64,000 bases of DNA, from IMG/VR virus record IMGVR_UViG_3300031565_000015, positions 1-64,000 of that record. One strand, 5' to 3'. The position numbers were made by a program, and so were the translations under genes. Shown here piece after piece: positions 7,248 through 24,782 of this stretch. Source of the stretch: a virus. Positions within the stretch are counted from its first letter, which is position 1; the number at the start of each line of letters is the position of its first letter. The notes below the pieces were generated by a model that was given only the letters and a program-made list of their open reading frames with translations, was not told the DNA's origin and ran no database searches.

Positions 7248-7591
7248 AAACAATTAAAGTAACGATCCCAGGCAAGCCGTCGGCATTGAAGGTTTTCGGG
7301 AGCGGCCCTGAATGTAAAATTATTAAAACAGGACTTGAGATATTTTTAGTATCAAATCCAGGTTCAATAGCAGCAGACACTTTAATAGAATATAATACTG
7401 GGCATAGATTGTATTGCCTGTTTTCAGACCTGGAAGAAATCCCCTGTACCCTCGCAATCACCAGAGAGTTCAAGGTCCCGAAGTCTGCCAACGGGGGCCA
7501 CCACTGTAATGTTCTGCATAAAATAATGGATTGCCGCGGAGCTTGGTCCGAATGCCCAGACTGCATATACCACTACCTTGCAACACTCTGA
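7244..7591 (+). CDS. REFKVP-family protein, tandem copy
   Basis: 115 residues, starting MKTIKVTIPGK, with an ATGA overlap to the previous gene. It ends REFKVP...CNVLHKIMDC...CPDCIYHYL. Its last 19 bases overlap the 3' end of the oppositely transcribed prim-pol gene, with no visible terminator between the converging operons. Confidence 0.7.
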   Translation: MKTIKVTIPGKPSALKVFGSGPECKIIKTGLEIFLVSNPGSIAADTLIEYNTGHRLYCLFSDLEEIPCTLAITREFKVPKSANGGHHCNVLHKIMDCRGAWSECPDCIYHYLATL

Positions 7592-9906
7592 CCTCCAGCT
7601 CCGCCCTGTACTGCGAGATACCCCTGGGCCTCGCAGTACACGCGGACCCTCTCCGCCATACTCTTGATATTCAGCGCGAGGTGGCCGGATTTAACGTATA
7701 AGACAGGTTTACCCCCCTCATATAGTATCGCATTGTTCGCCCGTCCAACAGCCTCATAGCCGAGGTTTTTCAGTATCTCCGTGCGTTTAGCCGTTGAGAT
7801 CTTCCCGTCGAACAGTTTACTGACAGCCATGGAAGACACCCACCCCCCTATAAAACCAGGAATACCTTCCTCACAAGACTCCCGGACTTTCTGTTCCCAA
7901 ACACCCAGTGAGTTCTCAAACGCTTCTTCGGTACTGGATGTGATTGGCGCTCGGTGGCACTCGCCGGCTGGGTTCAGTGCTGCGGCGATTGGGTAGTGTT
8001 GGAGGTAATGCGTTATGATAGAATATCCACCTTCTCTGGCCCACTTATAGAGATTCGGGAAATACATTCCCCACATTCCGTCCCGTTTCAAATCTTCAAC
8101 AGTTTGCTGAGCGGTATAAAATATACAGAGCCGACGGTCCTCTCTGGTTTTTCGCGCCCCGTCTTTATGGTTTGTATTCATAAAAAAATTAGCTCTATTA
8201 TCTCCGGAAGTCTGATTAGCCCCTTTCCCCTGAATAGGAACTCTCAGCCCTGTTATTAGAGGTTTCAGACATTCTATCAGGTCGTCGTCATCACCTTTGG
8301 TATAAACCTCCTCTATAATAGCCAGAAGCTTACCCTGCACCCAGGCGTTGAAAACATTCCCGACATCTTTTGGGTTGACAAGATGTGTGTACCTCTCTCC
8401 AATAGCCTTTGTCAAACACGTTGTCAAAAAAGACTTACCGTTGCCTTGAACCCCTTGGAGTAACGGCGCCCACTGTAACTTTTCACCTATCAACTGAACA
8501 CACGCCGCCATATAAGTCAAAAGAATTTTCTGGTCCATCTGATCAGGCAGTATCTTACCAACCAATTCGAGAAATGGTGTCGGGTCCCCAGGCGTTGATT
8601 CGACAGGTATAGGCACATATTGATTTAATAGAGTTTTTCCCTCCAGATTTATAACACTTCCAGGGGGCAGTTCTGGGCGGAAACAAACAGCATCCACTTT
8701 CGGAAATCGAAGCGCTTGAGACTCAGTAAACACCTCCCAGGCGTTCTTTGTGGTCTTAGAGTTCACGGAGTCTATGGCGAAGTTGTAACCTCCATACAGC
8801 GCCCGGAACTGGCCCGGCTCCACTAAAGAACCGTTCGGTATGAAAGCCGCGTGATCTTCCAGAACATAAACACACCCTTCAAACAGAGACAGTTGGTCCT
8901 CCGGCGCCAGGAACTGATAGCCCAGGCGGACCTCACCAACTGCCTGATCGGTAGGCGCCACATACGGTGCTGGCTCGGGGAGTGGTTTCTTGCCCTTATA
9001 GACTGCCTTGCACATGCTGACAGCCTTGAGTATAGTGGTCTGCACGTAGTCCGGCCGGTCATGGAATTTATCCCGTTGCCCCAGTGCTGAAGATTCCCAC
9101 AGACGCTGGATGCGCTCACAGTCTTTGCCTGTCCAGAACGCAAGGTGAGAACAGAGCGCAGAGTCCGCCTGAGACCAGTTGAAAGTATCAGAGTCCGACG
9201 GGTACACTCCGGCCAGCGCAGCCTCATCCGCCTCCCACAGTTGCTTGAGCGTAACACCCACCCCCAATATCGCTTTGGCGGACTTAGACTTGAAAGCCTT
9301 GGCCATCAGTTCCGAGTCGTCTTCCGGCCCATACCACTCAGGGTCTGGCGCAGTCGTCCAGTTGGCGTCTACTGATGCAACAGATCCGGCGGTAGGCTGG
9401 AAGTACGTTTCGACTAATTGCCGGTACACATGCTCTGGCGGCGTGAATCCGGAGTCTCCAGTAGCCCCGTTTAAGGTTAAAGCCACAAACCTCTTAGATG
9501 TGTAGAACTGAGAGTTCAAAGGTTTACTGTCGCACCCGTGCGGAATATCAACAGGTTTCCTGCCTATAATGTGAAGACCTTCCCCAGACTGAGAGACCTC
9601 AATGAAACAACCCGCGAATTGCTGACATGACCATTTAGCAATATCATTCCAAGTCCCGTCTGGATTCTTGCAATGGTCTATGTCATAAAAGAAAAGGTCA
9701 TCTGAGTCAGTGAATGTGAACGCTAAAGGCCCGGAGGCGCTTGCAGTCTCACAGTCCACCCATACCGAAGAATCGTGAGCGTCGCAGGCATCCCCTGTTA
9801 AGGGATTTGTTGTTATTTTATCTGTTTTCCCGTTCTCCTTTGGAACGAGTATGTAATTACCGAACTGTTTGAATTGGGACATATACTTCAGGGGTGCTGG
9901 AATCAT
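7573..9906 (-). CDS. Primase-polymerase / superfamily 3-like helicase
   Basis: 777 residues. The N-terminal prim-pol domain shows FFYDIDHC (D75, D77), SQSGEGLH (about 105-112) and YTSKRFVALT. A middle helical part (about 240-300) resembles the bundle domain of NrS-1-type polymerases. The helicase domain carries GVQGNGKS (485-492, Walker A) and LLAIIEE (Walker B) with arginine-rich sensor sequence. The protein should prime, extend and unwind phage DNA. The ATG overlaps the stop of the methyltransferase gene. A remnant of its N-terminus lies at 10775-10885 and a paralogue of its helicase core at 15436-15978. Confidence 0.88.
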   Translation of the reverse strand: MIPAPLKYMSQFKQFGNYILVPKENGKTDKITTNPLTGDACDAHDSSVWVDCETASASGPLAFTFTDSDDLFFYDIDHCKNPDGTWNDIAKWSCQQFAGCFIEVSQSGEGLHIIGRKPVDIPHGCDSKPLNSQFYTSKRFVALTLNGATGDSGFTPPEHVYRQLVETYFQPTAGSVASVDANWTTAPDPEWYGPEDDSELMAKAFKSKSAKAILGVGVTLKQLWEADEAALAGVYPSDSDTFNWSQADSALCSHLAFWTGKDCERIQRLWESSALGQRDKFHDRPDYVQTTILKAVSMCKAVYKGKKPLPEPAPYVAPTDQAVGEVRLGYQFLAPEDQLSLFEGCVYVLEDHAAFIPNGSLVEPGQFRALYGGYNFAIDSVNSKTTKNAWEVFTESQALRFPKVDAVCFRPELPPGSVINLEGKTLLNQYVPIPVESTPGDPTPFLELVGKILPDQMDQKILLTYMAACVQLIGEKLQWAPLLQGVQGNGKSFLTTCLTKAIGERYTHLVNPKDVGNVFNAWVQGKLLAIIEEVYTKGDDDDLIECLKPLITGLRVPIQGKGANQTSGDNRANFFMNTNHKDGARKTREDRRLCIFYTAQQTVEDLKRDGMWGMYFPNLYKWAREGGYSIITHYLQHYPIAAALNPAGECHRAPITSSTEEAFENSLGVWEQKVRESCEEGIPGFIGGWVSSMAVSKLFDGKISTAKRTEILKNLGYEAVGRANNAILYEGGKPVLYVKSGHLALNIKSMAERVRVYCEAQGYLAVQGGAGGQSVAR

Positions 9907-16074: not shown

Positions 16075-16359
16075 TTAGATACGAAGAACCCCCTTCTCAA
16101 CTTGGCCTTTAGCTCCCGCCGGCTCCCAAAGAGAAAAACAGATGAAATATATCGGGATAACAACCGTTTCGCAGAGAATAACTGATAAAACGAGATTGCC
16201 TGCTATTAAACGGTATTCGATATCGGGATTACACATTTCTGTTTTATTTACAAGTCCATAAGTCCCATATGTTTTCTCTTTAATTTGTAGGTTTCTCCCG
16301 CAAGAAACCGTCGAAAGCATAATCACCATAGCCAATACACACAATACGGTCTTATTCAT
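16075..16359 (-). CDS. Lipoprotein with C-terminal membrane helix
   Basis: 94 residues from the ATG at 16359 after GGGAGGGG. MNKTVLCVLAMVIMLSTVSC is a lipoprotein signal with cysteine at the lipobox. Later IAGNLVLSVILCETVVIPIY is a membrane helix. The pattern is common in small phage and mobile-element lipoproteins whose function is unknown; envelope modification during infection is possible. Confidence 0.75.
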   Translation of the reverse strand: MNKTVLCVLAMVIMLSTVSCGRNLQIKEKTYGTYGLVNKTEMCNPDIEYRLIAGNLVLSVILCETVVIPIYFICFSLWEPAGAKGQVEKGVLRI

Positions 16360-18374
16360 CGAACCCCCTCCCATATTCTCTCACATAACCCCGCAGCCTC
16401 AGTCCGACCCAAACACTGGGCGGACACCATATCCAGTCCGAACGTGCGGTAGAACCTCATCATAATAACAGAGTCGGACTGACCGGCGGCGCGTTGGTAT
16501 CCACACCATGTGGCTATCATCTCCCGCAGTTCTGTCTGCGCTTCCTGTCGCAGACGGTGGTTTTTCATTGCTCCCAGTACCGCCTGTGGTGGCGCCCCGG
16601 CGTGTCTCAGTTTCTCACCTACCTCGTAGTCCGGAGCATCCACCCGGGCAACCTCTCCCCGCATGGCTGCCAGTACCGCGGGATCTATCTCACTCAGATC
16701 CCCCTCGACCATCTCAATGCTGACGTTACCCTGAGTAACATATTGCCATCCGCAGTACGGGCAGTCTCTCTCATATGCCTCATAGACCGCCAGGCACTCC
16801 CGGCATGTCCGTATTGGGATTAAGTCGTCATCCCGTTTCTTAGACCCTCGGGTGCCTTCCAGGGACCACTCGCGGTATCGGTCCGGAAGTCCATGCCGTT
16901 TGATATTGCCCACGTGATCTATAATAATGGCGTGTTGCTTGCCGTCTAACAGCCTGAGCGATCTTCCGAACTGCTGGACAAAAAGAGGGTAAGAAGCTGT
17001 CGGACGGGCGAAGCTGCACACCTCAATGGCAGGCAGATCGAACCCCTCTCCGAATACGTCTACATTTACCAGTTCTTTCAGGTCTCCCCGGGCGAGCATC
17101 TCAATGGACTTATAGCGCTCTCGGTCCGGGGTACCTGCATGGACCACCCGCGCCGGAACTCCTGCGCCACAGAACGACGCGGCCATATCCTTGGCGGTCT
17201 GAACATCAGGAACGAATGTGACTCCGATCTTACCAGGAGCAAATTTAAGGTAGCTCTTGACCACATCTCCAACGATGGGGGACCGACGGACAGCAGCGGT
17301 CAGTTTCGGCTTGCTGTAGTCACCCGAGCGACCCACAGTGACACCTGTGAGGTCCACGTTACTGTACGGCCCGAATATCCGGTAGTCTGTGAGATACCCA
17401 GCGTTTATCAGTTCTCGCATACCGGGGCCACTCACCAGTGTATCGAATACGCCGGCGGCAGACCGCCCGATACCCTGCCCATCCGCCCGTTCCGGGGTGG
17501 CAGTAACTCCCAGCCCCCGGCAGGACTCAGGGAACAGGCCGATAGCCTGCATCCACTCGTTACCGCCCGCTACGTGGTGACAGTTGTGAACGACTATCCC
17601 GTTGGCTGTGTAGGTATGGAGTTCTTCGACTTCCAGGTTGTAAACGAACCGGTTAGGGGACGTTGCATACAGCATAGAGTTTAACACAGGCACCCAAGCC
17701 CCTGTCTTGGTTAGAACCACATCTTTTCTGGACAGGGCACCGGCTTTAGCCCACCCGCGTTGAGTGAAATAAGGGTGATTGAGAGTAACCTTTGCTGACT
17801 CCATACCCTTAAACCCTATATGTGCCATTACATCAGGCATCGGATTCTTAAACACCCTCAGCATCGGACGCAACTCAAACCCACCAGTCCGCTCGTTATA
17901 AGCTGTGACCTTATCTCCGACACGGATCTGCTCAATCGGTCTGCCGTCAACCGGGGTGCCCGCCGGGAAACACTCATCAGTAACCCACAGTGATGCACGG
18001 TCTATCATCGGCTTGAGTACCTTCTGCCGGTTCAGCAAGGTCTTAACCCCGGCCACAATGCAGTTGGCCCGAGGGTCCTCATAGCGCCGCCCGAACCTGC
18101 GGATCTGCTCCGTTATTATATATTTGCAGAGACTGTCCGAGGCTTGCAGACTGTGAACCACTCCATATTTAGCGAGGGTGAACGACATCTGAGACACCAG
18201 TTCCTGCCGGTGGGCCACGGTGAAAGACACTCCGGTGTGGTGCAGGAGTTTATTGCTGAAGACCACGGTCTTGCCAGATCCTGTTGGGAGCGTAGCGCAT
18301 ACGTTCTGAGCGCCGTCAGCCCATGCGGCGTCTATGTCTTCTGATATCTTCTGTTGGTATGGTCGGAGTTTCAT
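16356..18374 (-). CDS. SF2 DNA/RNA helicase carrying a mini-intein
   Basis: 672 residues including a 130-residue intein. The helicase shows LPTGSGKT (29-36, motif I), VAHRQEL (Ia), DE|CHH (motif II, interrupted by the intein), VTATPERADG (III) and QQFGRSLRL (VI), then a CREC...CPYC zinc ribbon. Spliced length is about 542. It resembles RecG/Rad25-like DEAD-box ATPases found in phage replication modules. The start overlaps the upstream stop (ATGA). Confidence 0.88.
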   Translation of the reverse strand: MKLRPYQQKISEDIDAAWADGAQNVCATLPTGSGKTVVFSNKLLHHTGVSFTVAHRQELVSQMSFTLAKYGVVHSLQASDSLCKYIITEQIRRFGRRYEDPRANCIVAGVKTLLNRQKVLKPMIDRASLWVTDECFPAGTPVDGRPIEQIRVGDKVTAYNERTGGFELRPMLRVFKNPMPDVMAHIGFKGMESAKVTLNHPYFTQRGWAKAGALSRKDVVLTKTGAWVPVLNSMLYATSPNRFVYNLEVEELHTYTANGIVVHNCHHVAGGNEWMQAIGLFPESCRGLGVTATPERADGQGIGRSAAGVFDTLVSGPGMRELINAGYLTDYRIFGPYSNVDLTGVTVGRSGDYSKPKLTAAVRRSPIVGDVVKSYLKFAPGKIGVTFVPDVQTAKDMAASFCGAGVPARVVHAGTPDRERYKSIEMLARGDLKELVNVDVFGEGFDLPAIEVCSFARPTASYPLFVQQFGRSLRLLDGKQHAIIIDHVGNIKRHGLPDRYREWSLEGTRGSKKRDDDLIPIRTCRECLAVYEAYERDCPYCGWQYVTQGNVSIEMVEGDLSEIDPAVLAAMRGEVARVDAPDYEVGEKLRHAGAPPQAVLGAMKNHRLRQEAQTELREMIATWCGYQRAAGQSDSVIMMRFYRTFGLDMVSAQCLGRTEAAGLCERIWEGVR
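17583..17972 (-). other. Mini-intein inside helicase motif II
   Basis: 130 residues (135-264 of the precursor). Block A begins CFPAGTPVDG, block B is VTLNHPYFTQRGW, block F is YNLEVEELHTYTANGIVV and block G ends VVHN with cysteine as the +1 residue. There is no homing endonuclease domain. Insertion falls exactly between E and C of the DECH box, a catalytically essential point, so helicase activity requires splicing. Confidence 0.9.
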
Positions 18375-19241: not shown

Positions 19242-19411
19242 CATTCCTTCTCCGGTATATCACCCTTACAGACAGGGCATGGCAGTTTAGCAAAAAACCC
19301 TAATTCATCATCGTACAAACAGTCGTCACTGTACCCATGATTTTCTTCATCCCAAGGGTCTGGAAATTCCAACCGATCTTTATCGCAGGTCTTACAGCTT
19401 ATTAGATTCAT
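19241..19411 (-). CDS. Small zinc-ribbon protein
   Basis: 56 residues with CKTC near the N-terminus and CPVCKG near the C-terminus, a likely zinc ribbon. It overlaps the neighbouring genes by a few bases. GGGAG site. Confidence 0.65.
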   Translation of the reverse strand: MNLISCKTCDKDRLEFPDPWDEENHGYSDDCLYDDELGFFAKLPCPVCKGDIPEKE

Positions 19412-19908
19412 TTTTCCATCTCCCGAATCGTCCGTATAATCCGAATAGCTTTCACATAACCATGGTCATCAAGGTACTTCTTTCTAACAGCTTTTTCAAA
19501 TGCTTTAAGATCACCTCTGAAGCACCCACAGACTATCTGTTCGGTCGAATCTGAAGGAACCCAATAGGCGCAGGTATTATAGTAGTTGCCACCAATACCT
19601 TTGAACGCGTACCTATTCGGATTTTGTTTAAAGCCCCGGCAGTCCGTGCAGTACCGGCAGTCCGTGCAGTCCGTGCAGTCCGTGCAGTTCGTGCAGTACC
19701 GGCAGTCCGTGCAGTCCGTGCAGTATCGGCAGTCCGTGCAGTTCGTGCAGTTCGTGCAGTACCGGCAGTCCGTGCAGTCCGTGCAGTTCGTGCAGTACCG
19801 GCAGTCCGTCAGAGTTTCCGATGCTGACTTAGCTTGTGGTTCTGTATAGAAATCTTCGCCCCATCTGTTCCCCTGCTCGTCTGCCCAATATCCGTCTTTA
19901 AGTTCCAT
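19408..19908 (-). CDS. Protein with C-x-x tripeptide repeats
   Basis: 166 residues. After an N-terminal (E)GYWADEQGNRWGEDFYTEP lead comes a run of about 20 C-x-x triplets (DCRYCTNCTDC and variants, residues about 35-91), then a globular C-terminus (CAYWVPSDSTEQIVCGCFRG). Regular cysteine every third residue suggests a right-handed beta-helix-like stack, as in pentapeptide-type solenoids. Function unknown. GGGAG site and a strong upstream promoter. Confidence 0.75.
   Translation of the reverse strand: MELKDGYWADEQGNRWGEDFYTEPQAKSASETLTDCRYCTNCTDCTDCRYCTNCTNCTDCRYCTDCTDCRYCTNCTDCTDCTDCRYCTDCRGFKQNPNRYAFKGIGGNYYNTCAYWVPSDSTEQIVCGCFRGDLKAFEKAVRKKYLDDHGYVKAIRIIRTIREMEK
19640..19810. repeat. 9-bp coding repeat (C-x-x triplets)
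   Basis: The sequence is built from GCAGTCCGT and GCAGTACCG units in mixed order. It encodes the cysteine triplets of the 19408-19908 protein and is prone to length change. Confidence 0.9.
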
Positions 19909-20585: not shown

Positions 20586-22736
20586 TCACTTCCTATACCG
20601 ATGCCCACGCCACCCGCCAGATGCACTGATCGGCCAGTCTGCGAACCACGGCTCTCTGACTTCCATTAACTGCTCGAACTCTTCGACACTGCCGAAACCT
20701 ATCGGCACCTCAGACACAATCTCATCATGGACATGCAGTACCGGCGGATACCCGGCGGCGTTCACTCGCAGTAACGCGGAGGCCATGATATCTCGCGCCA
20801 CGGACTGGCACAGATTTTCCGTCAGTTTCGAGCCATATGTCTGAATCCTGCACCATTTATGGGTGTACCCGTCCATCCCCATATAGGAGATCTGCTGTAC
20901 TTCCTGGCCCCGGGGATCAGTCCCATGGCTCAACCTCGGCTCATGGTAAGACAGGCATCGCCCGGACGGTAATCTGATATACAGAACGTCCCCAAATACA
21001 CCAAATTTAATATCCCTGTAAGAGTATTCAGTTCCGGGATTTGCGATCGCCAGGACCGTCATACCCTCAACGCCATAGAACTCCCGATAGAACTCCCATC
21101 TGCCCATAACCTTCCGCCACTGACCGCCCCAAAACTCCACAATAGCTGGGGATGCTTCCCGCCACGCAAGGATATTCTGCTTGATTTCTTCTTCTGTACA
21201 ATACTCCCCGGCACCGAACCGTAAAGAAGCGTCTATCCACCCCCCGAAACCGTTCGCTAATTCGTTTACCTTACCCTTTTTACGCAACGGGTGGTGCTTT
21301 CCGGTAGCCGTCTTGTGCGCGAGGATCTCTTCCAACGGCACTCCAGTAATCATACTGATGGACGCCTCGTATATCTTCCCATGGGTGCGGAACACATCTA
21401 AACGCCACTCCTCGCCCGCCAGTGCCGCCAGTACAACAGCTTCAATAGCACTGAAATCTGAACAGATTAACTCCTTGCCCGGACCGGCCACCAGTAAAGA
21501 TCTCATACAAGAGCCGATCAGGTCAAGGGAGCTACCCCACCGCCCCTCTATCTGTTCCAGATCACCAGTGTGGATATCAACCAGAGCACGTTCGGCCAGG
21601 GTGTTCCCCCACTCCATACCATCTTCTTCGGGTCCGCCGTTCCGAAAATTTTGGGGTTGAATTTGCCGCCCCGCCCATCGCCCCGTGCGTTCAGCCCCGC
21701 AGTATACGAACGAGTCTCTGATCCGCCCGTCACTGTTGAGACATCTCTGCATTGCGAACAGTTTCTTAACCGCCGCCCCGCCAATAGCCTGGCGGATTTC
21801 CAGAACTCGACGAACATCAGATGGGAGATCGGCCCGTTCCAGGGAGTCCACTACCGTCTGTTTGTCCAGACTCGGGAAGGCGAACCCACGGGACTGAAAC
21901 CATTTATCCCCGGCGGACCCCTTGGACACCTCATCAACTGTCATAACATCGGGTTTTTCGAGCGCAGGGTTCCAAGTAATACGCTGCAATTCAGCGGTGT
22001 ATTTATTACTGGCAGCATGGAATAATCTGACACATGCTTCCAGTCCTTCCAGGTCAATAGCCACCCCCCGTACGTTAATCTCCTGGTCGATCAACCACAC
22101 CTGAGTCTCAAATTCCGACATCTCTGGCATTCGTGATGACACGTCCTGTTCGGCCACAACATCCTGGTCATTATACTCGTACATCTCGTAATGTAACTCA
22201 GGGTACTTCTCGAACGAACGGTACAGTTCTTTACAGGCTTTGGTAGGTTTCTTCGGGATTGACAGCAACTGAATGAGTTTTTTGCCTCTCGGGTCTTTAC
22301 CCCGACCAGGTGTGACTATACTGGCCACCTTCTCCAATGCGCCGGGCAGTCCCCATGCTCTGGCCTTGGCCGCAGAACATCTTAATTGGTGTAACGGCAG
22401 CTCCGGCCACCCCATTCGCAGATAGCAGACGTAAAACCAGAAGTAATACTCGAATCCGGAATTGTGCGCCTCTATAAGCCCGCCGGAGTGGAGATAATGG
22501 AATAATGGGGCGGGACCTGCCGTATTAACAGGGGTCCAGAGTCGGACCCCACATCCGTCATTCAGATTGTACGCTAAGGAGATGACTCTGGCTGACGGAT
22601 GTTCCGCGTAAACCGGGGCATTCACACATTGTATCCCGGGTTTACCTTTCATTAACGGTTTAAAGTACCCGCAACTTTCGTCGAATACATAACCTGCTTC
22701 ACTGTAGCACTCAAAGTCCATTGCGGGTATTATCAT
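20586..22736 (-). CDS. Family A DNA polymerase with 3'-5' exonuclease
   Basis: 716 residues. The exonuclease domain has MDFECY (D7, E9), EAHNSGFEYYFW (89-100) and YNDQDVVAEQDV (188-199). The polymerase domain has TGRWAGRQIQPQN (351-363), SDFSAIEA (D427, motif A), KGKVNELANGFGG (487-499, O-helix) and VHDEIVSEVP (about 669, motif C). AAGGAG precedes the ATG. It should be the phage replicative polymerase, working with the prim-pol/helicase and SSB. Confidence 0.93.
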   Translation of the reverse strand: MIIPAMDFECYSEAGYVFDESCGYFKPLMKGKPGIQCVNAPVYAEHPSARVISLAYNLNDGCGVRLWTPVNTAGPAPLFHYLHSGGLIEAHNSGFEYYFWFYVCYLRMGWPELPLHQLRCSAAKARAWGLPGALEKVASIVTPGRGKDPRGKKLIQLLSIPKKPTKACKELYRSFEKYPELHYEMYEYNDQDVVAEQDVSSRMPEMSEFETQVWLIDQEINVRGVAIDLEGLEACVRLFHAASNKYTAELQRITWNPALEKPDVMTVDEVSKGSAGDKWFQSRGFAFPSLDKQTVVDSLERADLPSDVRRVLEIRQAIGGAAVKKLFAMQRCLNSDGRIRDSFVYCGAERTGRWAGRQIQPQNFRNGGPEEDGMEWGNTLAERALVDIHTGDLEQIEGRWGSSLDLIGSCMRSLLVAGPGKELICSDFSAIEAVVLAALAGEEWRLDVFRTHGKIYEASISMITGVPLEEILAHKTATGKHHPLRKKGKVNELANGFGGWIDASLRFGAGEYCTEEEIKQNILAWREASPAIVEFWGGQWRKVMGRWEFYREFYGVEGMTVLAIANPGTEYSYRDIKFGVFGDVLYIRLPSGRCLSYHEPRLSHGTDPRGQEVQQISYMGMDGYTHKWCRIQTYGSKLTENLCQSVARDIMASALLRVNAAGYPPVLHVHDEIVSEVPIGFGSVEEFEQLMEVREPWFADWPISASGGWRGHRYRK

Positions 22737-22759: not shown

Positions 22760-23725
22760 TTAATAGGGAATGTCGTCAGTGGGGGCTCCAGTATTTAGCG
22801 GACCGTAGTGCGGCGGGATAGGCTGTTGCTGGCCGGGGGCCTGGAACTGCTGGCCGGGGGCCTGGAACTGGGGCCCGCCCTGTGGGGCCTGGAACTGGGG
22901 CCCGCCCTGTGGGGCCTGGAACTGGGGCCCGCCCTGTGGGGCCTGGAACTGCGGACCGGCAGGAGCGCCCTGTGGGGGTTGGAACTGTGGACCGGCAGGA
23001 GCGCCCTGTGGTGCCTGGAACTGCGGACCGGCAGGAGCGCCCTGTGGTGCCTGGAACTGCGGACCGGCAGGAGCGCCCTGTGGTGCCTGGAACTGCTGTC
23101 CCGCCGAGGGCTGGCCGGGGGGCATGATTCCGGCAGTCGGGGCAACAGGTGTCGCACTGGCGCCGGCAGGCAGTTGAACTGCTGGAGCACCTGTCAGTAT
23201 AGAAGGATCGGCCCCGCCGGATTTGATCTCGGACCCATAGCCTACCACTTCAAACAATTCAGGATATAATTTGATTCCAGGAGTCTGCCTTTTACCGACA
23301 TCGGCATTGTTGCTTTTAATGACGAACGGCACCCTGACGTAATCACCACACTTGACCTGGGATTTATCCGTAATCTGCAAAACCTGTCCGTTTTCCTGAC
23401 GATAAGTGCTGAAGGGGTACAGACTCCCCATGGAGAAAACCCAACAGCCCTGCCAGCCTTCTTTGTCCTTGAAAGCGATCTGATCGCCGTCTTTATACTT
23501 CCAGCTAAAATTGTTCGCCTGGAACTCACCTCTTGGCCATGACAACTGCGCCACTGAGTTGAGCATGGCCAACACATTATTCACTGTGGGGTCTGTTTTC
23601 TGAACAGCCACCCCCACATAGTAGTGTTGCCCTGTAATATTTCCCTGTTGGTCTTTGTCGTCATAAGGTGTGAACAAATTACCTTCAACGAACCGCCCTA
23701 CAATCCACTGTCTTTCATCAGCCAT
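22760..23725 (-). CDS. DUF2815-type single-stranded DNA-binding protein with repeat tail
   Basis: 321 residues. The N-terminal ~180 residues form an OB-fold-like domain (FVEGNLFTPYDDK, GDYVRVPFVIKSN) of the DUF2815 ssDNA-binding group. The C-terminal third is a low-complexity PQFQAPQG(AP/GG) repeat, ending in TDDIPY, an acidic tip like those SSBs use to recruit partners. It lies directly upstream of polA in the transcript. Confidence 0.8.
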   Translation of the reverse strand: MADERQWIVGRFVEGNLFTPYDDKDQQGNITGQHYYVGVAVQKTDPTVNNVLAMLNSVAQLSWPRGEFQANNFSWKYKDGDQIAFKDKEGWQGCWVFSMGSLYPFSTYRQENGQVLQITDKSQVKCGDYVRVPFVIKSNNADVGKRQTPGIKLYPELFEVVGYGSEIKSGGADPSILTGAPAVQLPAGASATPVAPTAGIMPPGQPSAGQQFQAPQGAPAGPQFQAPQGAPAGPQFQAPQGAPAGPQFQPPQGAPAGPQFQAPQGGPQFQAPQGGPQFQAPQGGPQFQAPGQQFQAPGQQQPIPPHYGPLNTGAPTDDIPY

Positions 23726-24782
23726 TGATAATACTCCTTATTGCGTCTAAATCGACGAGGTTAAGTTTATGTCCTTGTAATTCCCGTTTAGCCATGAAGT
23801 CAATCATGCCGTCATCTATCAGTTTCCTGTCAATCGCCTGAGTCGGTGTGATTGGGGACTCGGGCTGCCGGAGGTCGATACCCATTTCATCACCGGCGGT
23901 AATAGCATCCACTGTCCATTTTAAAGCACTCATGGTCTGTCGGGCCTCATACCCCGGCAGTAGTTTACCGCCTTTGATGAGTGCCAATCCATGGGCCTCC
24001 AGTGCTGTCAGTCTATGTTTGATCCTCGCTGCCGCAGTCTCCAGCCTGGACAGTTCGATTGCAACTTCATTTGGTGTCGGGGCGAAACTATCTGATATTC
24101 CAGCAGCATCCATGCAGTCTCCCGCAGCATGGGCGTTCGTTGGACAGTTTATAATGTGCTTACAGTACCGGCAGTGGTCGCCAGAACAGGTCGGTGCGTC
24201 CGGCAGTACCGCCAGTCTAACCTGATTGTCAATCTGGTTGGTGTAATTCCGGAGCAGTTCCGCGCTAAATCCCCAGGACCAGACAGGGCCTCCAGACCGT
24301 CTGTTCGCCCGGGGCTGGCATATATGAATCTGCACGTCCCTAATACCCGGTGTGGCTTTAATTATCGCACCTGTTATGCACTGCCAGTTGTTTTCAGGGA
24401 ACACCCATCCATGGCCGTACTTAAAGTCAACGATGTGCAGTGTGTACCCTGAGATCGCCCAGAAGTCGGGTATGCAGACCACAGTGTGCCCACTGACTTC
24501 CAGTTCCCCTCGGTCTTCCACACCTCCACGCTCGGCGTTCAGAGAGTAGCAGAACGCGGTGTATTTCTCAACCGCTGTTATCATCTCCTGGTCTACCCAC
24601 ACATCCAGGATCTGCTGACCCAGGAACTCTGACGGCAACTTACGTTCGAGCAGACACATCTCTGCCACTTTAGCCGCCGCCCGTCCTTCCCAGTTCGGCT
24701 CACCGTAAGGATACTGTTTCTCTGCCAGGTACGAACCGGCGCATCCCATAACCCGGAATAGCCCGGAAGCGTTGAACTTCAT
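23718..24782 (-). CDS. DUF2800 nuclease (PD-(D/E)XK)
   Basis: 354 residues. CGAGSYLAEKQYP-like start (GCAGSYLAEK), GHTVVCIPDFWAI, LHIVDFKYGHGWV (catalytic D-x-K) and a CSGDHCRYCKHIINC cysteine cluster match DUF2800, a Cas4/RecB-like exonuclease family in phages. It likely processes DNA ends in recombination. The ATG region overlaps the next gene. Confidence 0.82.
   Translation of the reverse strand: MKFNASGLFRVMGCAGSYLAEKQYPYGEPNWEGRAAAKVAEMCLLERKLPSEFLGQQILDVWVDQEMITAVEKYTAFCYSLNAERGGVEDRGELEVSGHTVVCIPDFWAISGYTLHIVDFKYGHGWVFPENNWQCITGAIIKATPGIRDVQIHICQPRANRRSGGPVWSWGFSAELLRNYTNQIDNQVRLAVLPDAPTCSGDHCRYCKHIINCPTNAHAAGDCMDAAGISDSFAPTPNEVAIELSRLETAAARIKHRLTALEAHGLALIKGGKLLPGYEARQTMSALKWTVDAITAGDEMGIDLRQPESPITPTQAIDRKLIDDGMIDFMAKRELQGHKLNLVDLDAIRSIING

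Follow-up and report, generated by a model that had tools for sequence, protein, structure and literature searches.

Inteins are usually pictured as a splicing domain combined with an in-frame endonuclease domain. Two other kinds of element serve as points of comparison: BIL domains, which are not known to require a +1 nucleophile or to occur in conserved motifs with intein-free homologues, and I-Bth0305I, which is known as an intron-encoded enzyme. The nearest published case to the inteins with a nested endonuclease described below is the ShiLan domain, which, like the Pacc40 gp60 insertion, hides an out-of-frame HNH endonuclease in a phage methylase (PMC11855218). That paper refers in turn to a preprint on actinophage inteins of 'non-canonical architecture' (10.1101/2025.01.02.630785) and to earlier work on non-canonical inteins (Gorbalenya 1998, NAR 26:1741). 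In the literature searched, outside which these two lie, no intein was found described whose homing endonuclease is nested out of frame, and a partial prior description of the family is possible.

The intein analysed here lies in a 64,000-nt stretch of phage DNA (the window; positions 1 to 64,000 of IMG/VR record IMGVR_UViG_3300031565_000015). It has in common with the Mtu RecA mini-intein, the Ssp and Npu DnaB mini-inteins and gp41-1 the HINT fold, C1, TxxH, a penultimate His, a C-terminal Asn and a +1 nucleophile; as in those systems there is no endonuclease domain, and a conserved motif of a DNA-metabolism ATPase is hit. It differs from these class 1 mini-inteins in its host, a phage RadD-like SF2 helicase, and in its site, DE^CHH (caret, point of insertion). 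Its full-length relatives differ from the same systems in that the endonuclease is encoded in another frame, not as an in-frame domain. As a whole, the data are best explained by a self-splicing class 1 mini-intein derived from a mobile lineage with a nested endonuclease, a reading that we consider very probable.

The window helicase and its intein

The product of the intein-bearing gene matched the ResIII (6.6e-14) and Helicase_C (5.6e-9) domains, the curated RadD-like model NF053632 (1e-28) and the phrog_16 DNA helicase family (5e-75). Its predicted features, in window coordinates, are as follows.

16356..18374, minus strand: intein-bearing RadD-like SF2 phage helicase gene; 672-aa precursor, 542 aa once spliced
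17973..18374, minus strand: N-extein, 134 aa, with Walker A LPTGSGKT; terminates in ...SLWVTDE
17973..17978, minus strand: D and E codons of motif II, immediately 5′ of the intein
17583..17972, minus strand: mini-intein, 130 aa, C1 to N130, precursor residues 135-264; splits DE^CHH between E and C
17934..17972, minus strand: block A with the nucleophile C1 (C1-FPAGTPV); C1, F2, A4, G5 and T6 invariant in alignment A4
17760..17801, minus strand: block B, TxxH (T63-LNH66); T63 and H66 invariant in alignment A4
17601..17648, minus strand: block F, FVYNLEVEELHTYTANG; from the alignment and TIGR01443 intein_Cterm
17583..17600, minus strand: block G with penultimate H129 and N130 (VVH129-N130), then the +1 Cys; V128-H129-N130 invariant in alignment A4
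17580..17582, minus strand: +1 Cys codon TGT, trans-esterification nucleophile and residue 3 of DECHH
16356..17582, minus strand: C-extein, 408 aa; starts CHHVAGGNEW

The same tailed-phage genome encodes a family A DNA polymerase (window 20589-22736, minus strand). Also present in the window are genes for an NrS-1 polymerase-like primase-polymerase (7576-9906, minus strand; HBD domain, 4e-16, and DUF5906) and for a 166-aa protein with a tandem cysteine repeat (CTDCRYCTNCTDC...; 19408-19908, minus strand). A DUF2800 gene (23721-24782) is close to the helicase, in an arrangement shared with Vibrio phages.

The boundaries 17583-17972 and the length of 130 residues given in the preliminary description of this DNA proved exact to the base, and the blocks A, B, F and G that it listed were all recovered by alignment and profile models. 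The intein runs from CFPAGTPV... to ...GIVVHN, followed by the C of motif II, and it matched the profiles PT-HINT (5e-15), Intein_splicing (1.5e-7) and TIGR01443 intein_Cterm (3.6e-8, passing the cut-off). The AF2 model (pLDDT 97.0, pTM 0.89) has the HINT fold, and Foldseek matched it to BIL domain 2lwy and to the Mtu RecA, Ssp DnaB and gp41-1 inteins, with TM-scores of 0.91 to 2lwy and 0.80 to the Mtu RecA intein. The sequence features of a class 1 intein (C1, T63, H66, H129, N130 and the +1 Cys) are present, and the insertion is precise and in frame, with intein-free homologues whose motif II is contiguous. The only Cys inside the intein is C1. A class 3 intein (no N-terminal nucleophile, WCT motif) was ruled out by C1 and the lack of an internal Cys, and a BIL domain by the +1 Cys, which is the C of DECHH, and the conserved-motif context. 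Sequence and model thus identify the element as a predicted class 1 mini-intein.

The preliminary description had also stated that the endonuclease is missing, and this was borne out: none was detected in frame, both other sense frames of the intein are full of stops, and no homologue of the nested endonuclease of the family is present in the 68.9-kb record of the window phage. The element is thus without a homing endonuclease, either in frame or nested. To place it near the smallest functional inteins was fair, as the structure entry of the gp41-1 intein is 128 residues long. It is not unique in size; the intein of one relative (L021), at 128 aa, is shorter by two residues. Taken alone, the window intein is a compact natural mini-intein, new and at a defined helicase site, of a kind that is already known.

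Intein-free relatives, which had been proposed as a check, were sought, and a phage contig in IMG/VR (L002) was found to encode the same helicase with a contiguous DECHH. The joined window exteins (...WVTDE/CHHVAGGNEW) equal the L002 sequence, and a protein-guided alignment placed the junction, exact to the base, between E and C of motif II, where the preliminary description had put it: L002 reads ...ASLWVTDECHHVAGGNEWMQA..., while the window reads ...ASLWVTDE/intein/CHHVAGGNEWMQA.... The exteins of the two phages are 86% identical, with a dN/dS of 0.14 over 542 codons and no stops or frameshifts, and further segments of the two genomes are shared at 78-97% DNA identity. Since other intein-free phage relatives have DEAHH or DESHH at motif II, the Cys of L002 may be the leftover of an earlier intein, or may be what made the site receptive. 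DNA identity between the two sets of exteins is highest near the insertion site (0.88-0.93, versus 0.66-0.82 over much of the gene), and values of 0.87-0.92 occur again downstream of it; the peak is compatible with co-conversion and also with conservation of motif II. Among GenBank phages, no close relatives of the window DNA were detected at megablast sensitivity.

Self-excision would proceed in four steps: an N-S acyl shift at C1, trans-esterification to the +1 Cys, cyclisation of Asn130, which would be helped by H129, and an S-N shift. Splicing would restore DECHH and thereby the ATPase activity of the helicase. With 130 residues splitting motif II, the unspliced helicase can soundly be predicted to be inactive. 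The low extein dN/dS indicates that the helicase is kept under strong purifying selection as a protein; a non-splicing intein would therefore be hard to reconcile with so constrained a helicase, and the constraint indirectly backs splicing. A decayed intein that has lost splicing and left the helicase dead might be read from block F, where a position that is often Asp in inteins is N112. However, the alignment shows Asn at this position throughout the motif II family, full-length members included; every nucleophile and the two catalytic His are preserved, with no variation in the family; and the exteins show the constraint and the uninterrupted 542 codons noted above. Decay is considered very improbable.

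It had further been suggested that splicing could act as a switch; redox, temperature, ATP or DNA would then be the cue that triggers splicing of an otherwise inactive helicase. An ATPase motif is indeed interrupted, so activity must come after splicing, and PMC6195587 reports conditional splicing for another helicase intein, that of mycobacterial DnaB. Against this, the window sequence carries no sign of regulation: C1 is the sole Cys of the intein, and on the N side the nearest 25 or so extein residues are free of Cys, so that no nearby extein Cys offers a disulfide trap. The closest relative, L002, is intein-free yet shares other phage genome segments, so regulation is not needed there. A large selfish family (below) inserts at motif II, which explains the position without regulation, and the mini form is explained without a switch by a one-off loss of the endonuclease from a parasitic element. 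A switch was therefore judged very improbable.

A nested +1-frame endonuclease in full-length relatives

A tblastn search with the helicase first revealed relatives, phages in which a longer insert occupies this position, and the family was then gathered by two degenerate-pattern scans of IMG/VR and later searches. The collection amounts to 120 different inteins in SF2 helicases, placed at motif II (DE^CHH or close variants) or at adjacent motif II sites. Their carriers are phages and members of several bacterial phyla, with Ktedonobacter, Riflebacteria, Planctomycetota and Myxococcota genomes among the bacterial ones. Intein lengths are bimodal, at about 128-150 aa (n = 11, the window intein included) and about 270-400 aa (most others). 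The long forms have an extra 150-230 residues between blocks B and F, which are of low complexity in the intein frame and contain no recognisable endonuclease motif in that frame. An endonuclease ORF of 190-300 codons is present in the +1 frame inside 102 of the 120 collected inteins, a proportion that is not a population frequency, as the seed set was collected by junction patterns. In two Vibrio phages (13VV501A and PS65A.1; L011 and L012) an apparent second intein was seen at Walker A (GAGK^C...THN^TVV) beside the motif II mini-intein. In another carrier (L293) a nested-endonuclease intein occupies a shifted site after DEAHHA (DEAHHA^CADSW), which suggests retargeting near motif II.

The nested product consists of one to three N-terminal CxxC...CxxxC zinc-finger modules and a DUF559 nuclease domain (1e-11 to 1e-12), and contains a segment, ASxRMKxNNPM...RGGNG, that we take to resemble a NUMOD-type DNA-binding motif. 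More than 40 columns of its alignment (A3) are invariant, among them E195, D197, H201 and D210. An AF2 model had a pLDDT of 81.6 overall and about 80-94 over most of the nuclease domain, with the domain arrangement uncertain, and its top folds were 3hrl and the I-Bth0305I catalytic domain 3r3p (probability 1.00; E 4.5e-3 for 3r3p). The product thus has both the E, D, H and D residues and the PD-(D/E)XK/Vsr-like fold of the EDxHD/DUF559 type. Examples of the nested ORF lie at JQ177061.1:7725-8474 (L003), MT104474.1:32639-33274 (L004, Pseudomonas phage MR14), MG592463.1:45205-45987 (L005) and MW824411.1:30239-30868 (L013). In the six GenBank phage records of carriers that were inspected (CP-T1, MR14, 1.088.O, K391, 1.194.O and 104E43.1), the helicase CDS alone is annotated over the nested ORF.

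Free-standing homologues of the nested endonuclease were found in two contigs. In L285 (2968-3582) the gene is directly upstream of an intein-free helicase with motif II DESHH, and in L261 (2956-3603) it is directly upstream of an intein-less helicase gene whose frame breaks at motif II, through a real or a sequencing indel. This arrangement looks like a stage of collaborative homing. Given its sporadic distribution and its adjacency to the target gene, the nested product is regarded as a putative homing endonuclease.

Long alternative frames are common in GC-rich DNA, and the overlapping ORF could in principle be spurious, a by-product of composition. Substitutions in 12 independent pairs of inteins argue otherwise. 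Counts at intein codon positions 1/2/3 were 206/145/476 in the splicing domain and 796/451/415 in the overlap, a switch of phase at the overlap with a chi-square p of about 1e-56. Since the wobble position of +1-frame codons falls on intein position 1, the excess at this position means that substitutions in the overlap follow the +1 frame. Single close pairs are starker, with 34/4/1 in the overlap of L005 and L007. A stop-codon simulation was biased, its inteins having been picked for an open frame, and was superseded by an unbiased count in which viral and bacterial genomes were searched with the endonuclease's own sequence. Of the 97 homologues found independently in this way, 94 overlie a stop-free intein frame, and a recognisable intein C-junction follows 92 of those 94; the third frame contains 2-33 stops across the homologues. 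The expectation from synonymous recoding is about 8 stops in the intein frame per intein, and 15 in AT-rich inteins, in which the dual openness holds as well. The product is also a conserved DUF559/EDxHD protein, with its many invariant columns, that occurs as a free-standing gene. A spurious ORF is, on these grounds, hardly credible.

The median position of the nested ATG is nt 259 of the intein, right behind block B. A Shine-Dalgarno match of at least 4 nt precedes 55% of nested ATGs, versus 23% of the remaining ATGs of these inteins (p 2e-13). In some full-length relatives a clear Shine-Dalgarno sequence or ATG is missing, and in some relatives the nested endonuclease may be made by programmed frameshifting rather than internal initiation; against frameshifting, 69 of 101 nested ATGs are preceded by a +1-frame stop at a distance of no more than 14 codons. 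The preferred account is internal initiation. The full-length alleles would then carry an endonuclease nested in the +1 frame between blocks B and F, not fused in frame, and translated from its own internal start, while the intein frame across the nested ORF would serve as a disposable linker, discarded by splicing. The nested endonuclease would cut intein-free motif II DNA and so drive homing.

Origin of the window copy

The window intein is proposed to be an endonuclease-less derivative of this widespread lineage, which occupies motif II of SF2 helicases in phages and some bacteria. In the splicing domain it shares 45-51% identity with full-length nested-ORF inteins, versus 34-40% with other mini-inteins, and in a tree of 134 columns, in which few forks are resolved, it clusters among endonuclease-bearing inteins (SH-aLRT 87). 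In the extein tree, the window and L002 are sisters (100), adjoining L078, a carrier of a full-length intein. A single clade of all mini-inteins was rejected (AU test, p-AU 0.005), and the endonuclease was therefore lost or, less simply, gained several times. A search of the window intein for remains of the nested ORF gave nothing readable, with several stops in both the +1 and the +2 frame. The window intein branch is long (1.41 changes per site), and its placement beside any one intein is tentative.

Because a relic is absent and the branch is long, a never-mobile origin was kept as a rival: the mini-inteins would be ancestral, the nested-endonuclease forms a later invasion, and the window lineage would never have had an endonuclease. 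The free-standing homologues beside intein-less helicase genes (L285, L261) are a plausible source of such an invasion. This order of events is nevertheless thought unlikely, as the mini-inteins are scattered among endonuclease-bearing inteins, and the endonuclease occupies the same position and frame in nearly all full-length forms, which suggests that it invaded once and was then lost repeatedly. The mini-inteins are most simply accounted for by such losses of the inner gene, with the window copy as one case, and the window copy is likely to be a deletion descendant of a nested-endonuclease allele. We infer splicing activity, internal initiation, homing activity and, in the window lineage, loss of the nested ORF by deletion.

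Significance and comparison with known systems

The lineage behind the window intein weighs more than the window intein itself. Over a hundred inteins, in phages and several bacterial phyla, hold their endonuclease as an overlapping gene of 190-300 codons. It is highly probable that the motif II lineage is a two-in-one mobile element, with an intein in the helicase frame and a zinc-finger EDxHD homing endonuclease in the +1 frame expressed through internal initiation, and that the mini-inteins are repeated deletion products. If this is true, splicing and mobility are encoded by overlapping genes in place of fused domains, an architecture which predicts that splicing and homing are controlled separately. 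The lineage would rank among the clearer natural examples of overlapping genes in prokaryotic viruses and offer many independent replicates for the study of dual-frame constraint, and the window mini-intein would show what remains once the inner gene is lost.

The best match of the window intein in both fold and sequence is BIL domain 2lwy; unlike BIL domains, it has a +1 nucleophile and lies in a conserved motif with intein-free homologues. The EDxHD (Vsr-like) homing endonuclease I-Bth0305I is a close known counterpart of the nested nuclease, whose model matches 3r3p and in which E, D, H and D are conserved; unlike I-Bth0305I, the nested nuclease lies across an intein in the +1 frame and has one to three N-terminal zinc-finger modules. 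The likeness to the ShiLan domain and the Pacc40 gp60 insertion lies in an out-of-frame endonuclease ORF nested in an insertion that is open in the host frame, and in a free-standing homologue beside the intact target gene in other phages (PMC11855218). The ShiLan and Pacc40 gp60 insertions have no splicing domain, are thought to be retained in the protein, and encode HNH enzymes with a GTG start and no Shine-Dalgarno sequence (PMC11855218). A ShiLan-type insertion was ruled out for the full-length relatives of the window intein by two differences: a complete intein forms their outer frame, and their nuclease belongs to the DUF559/EDxHD type.
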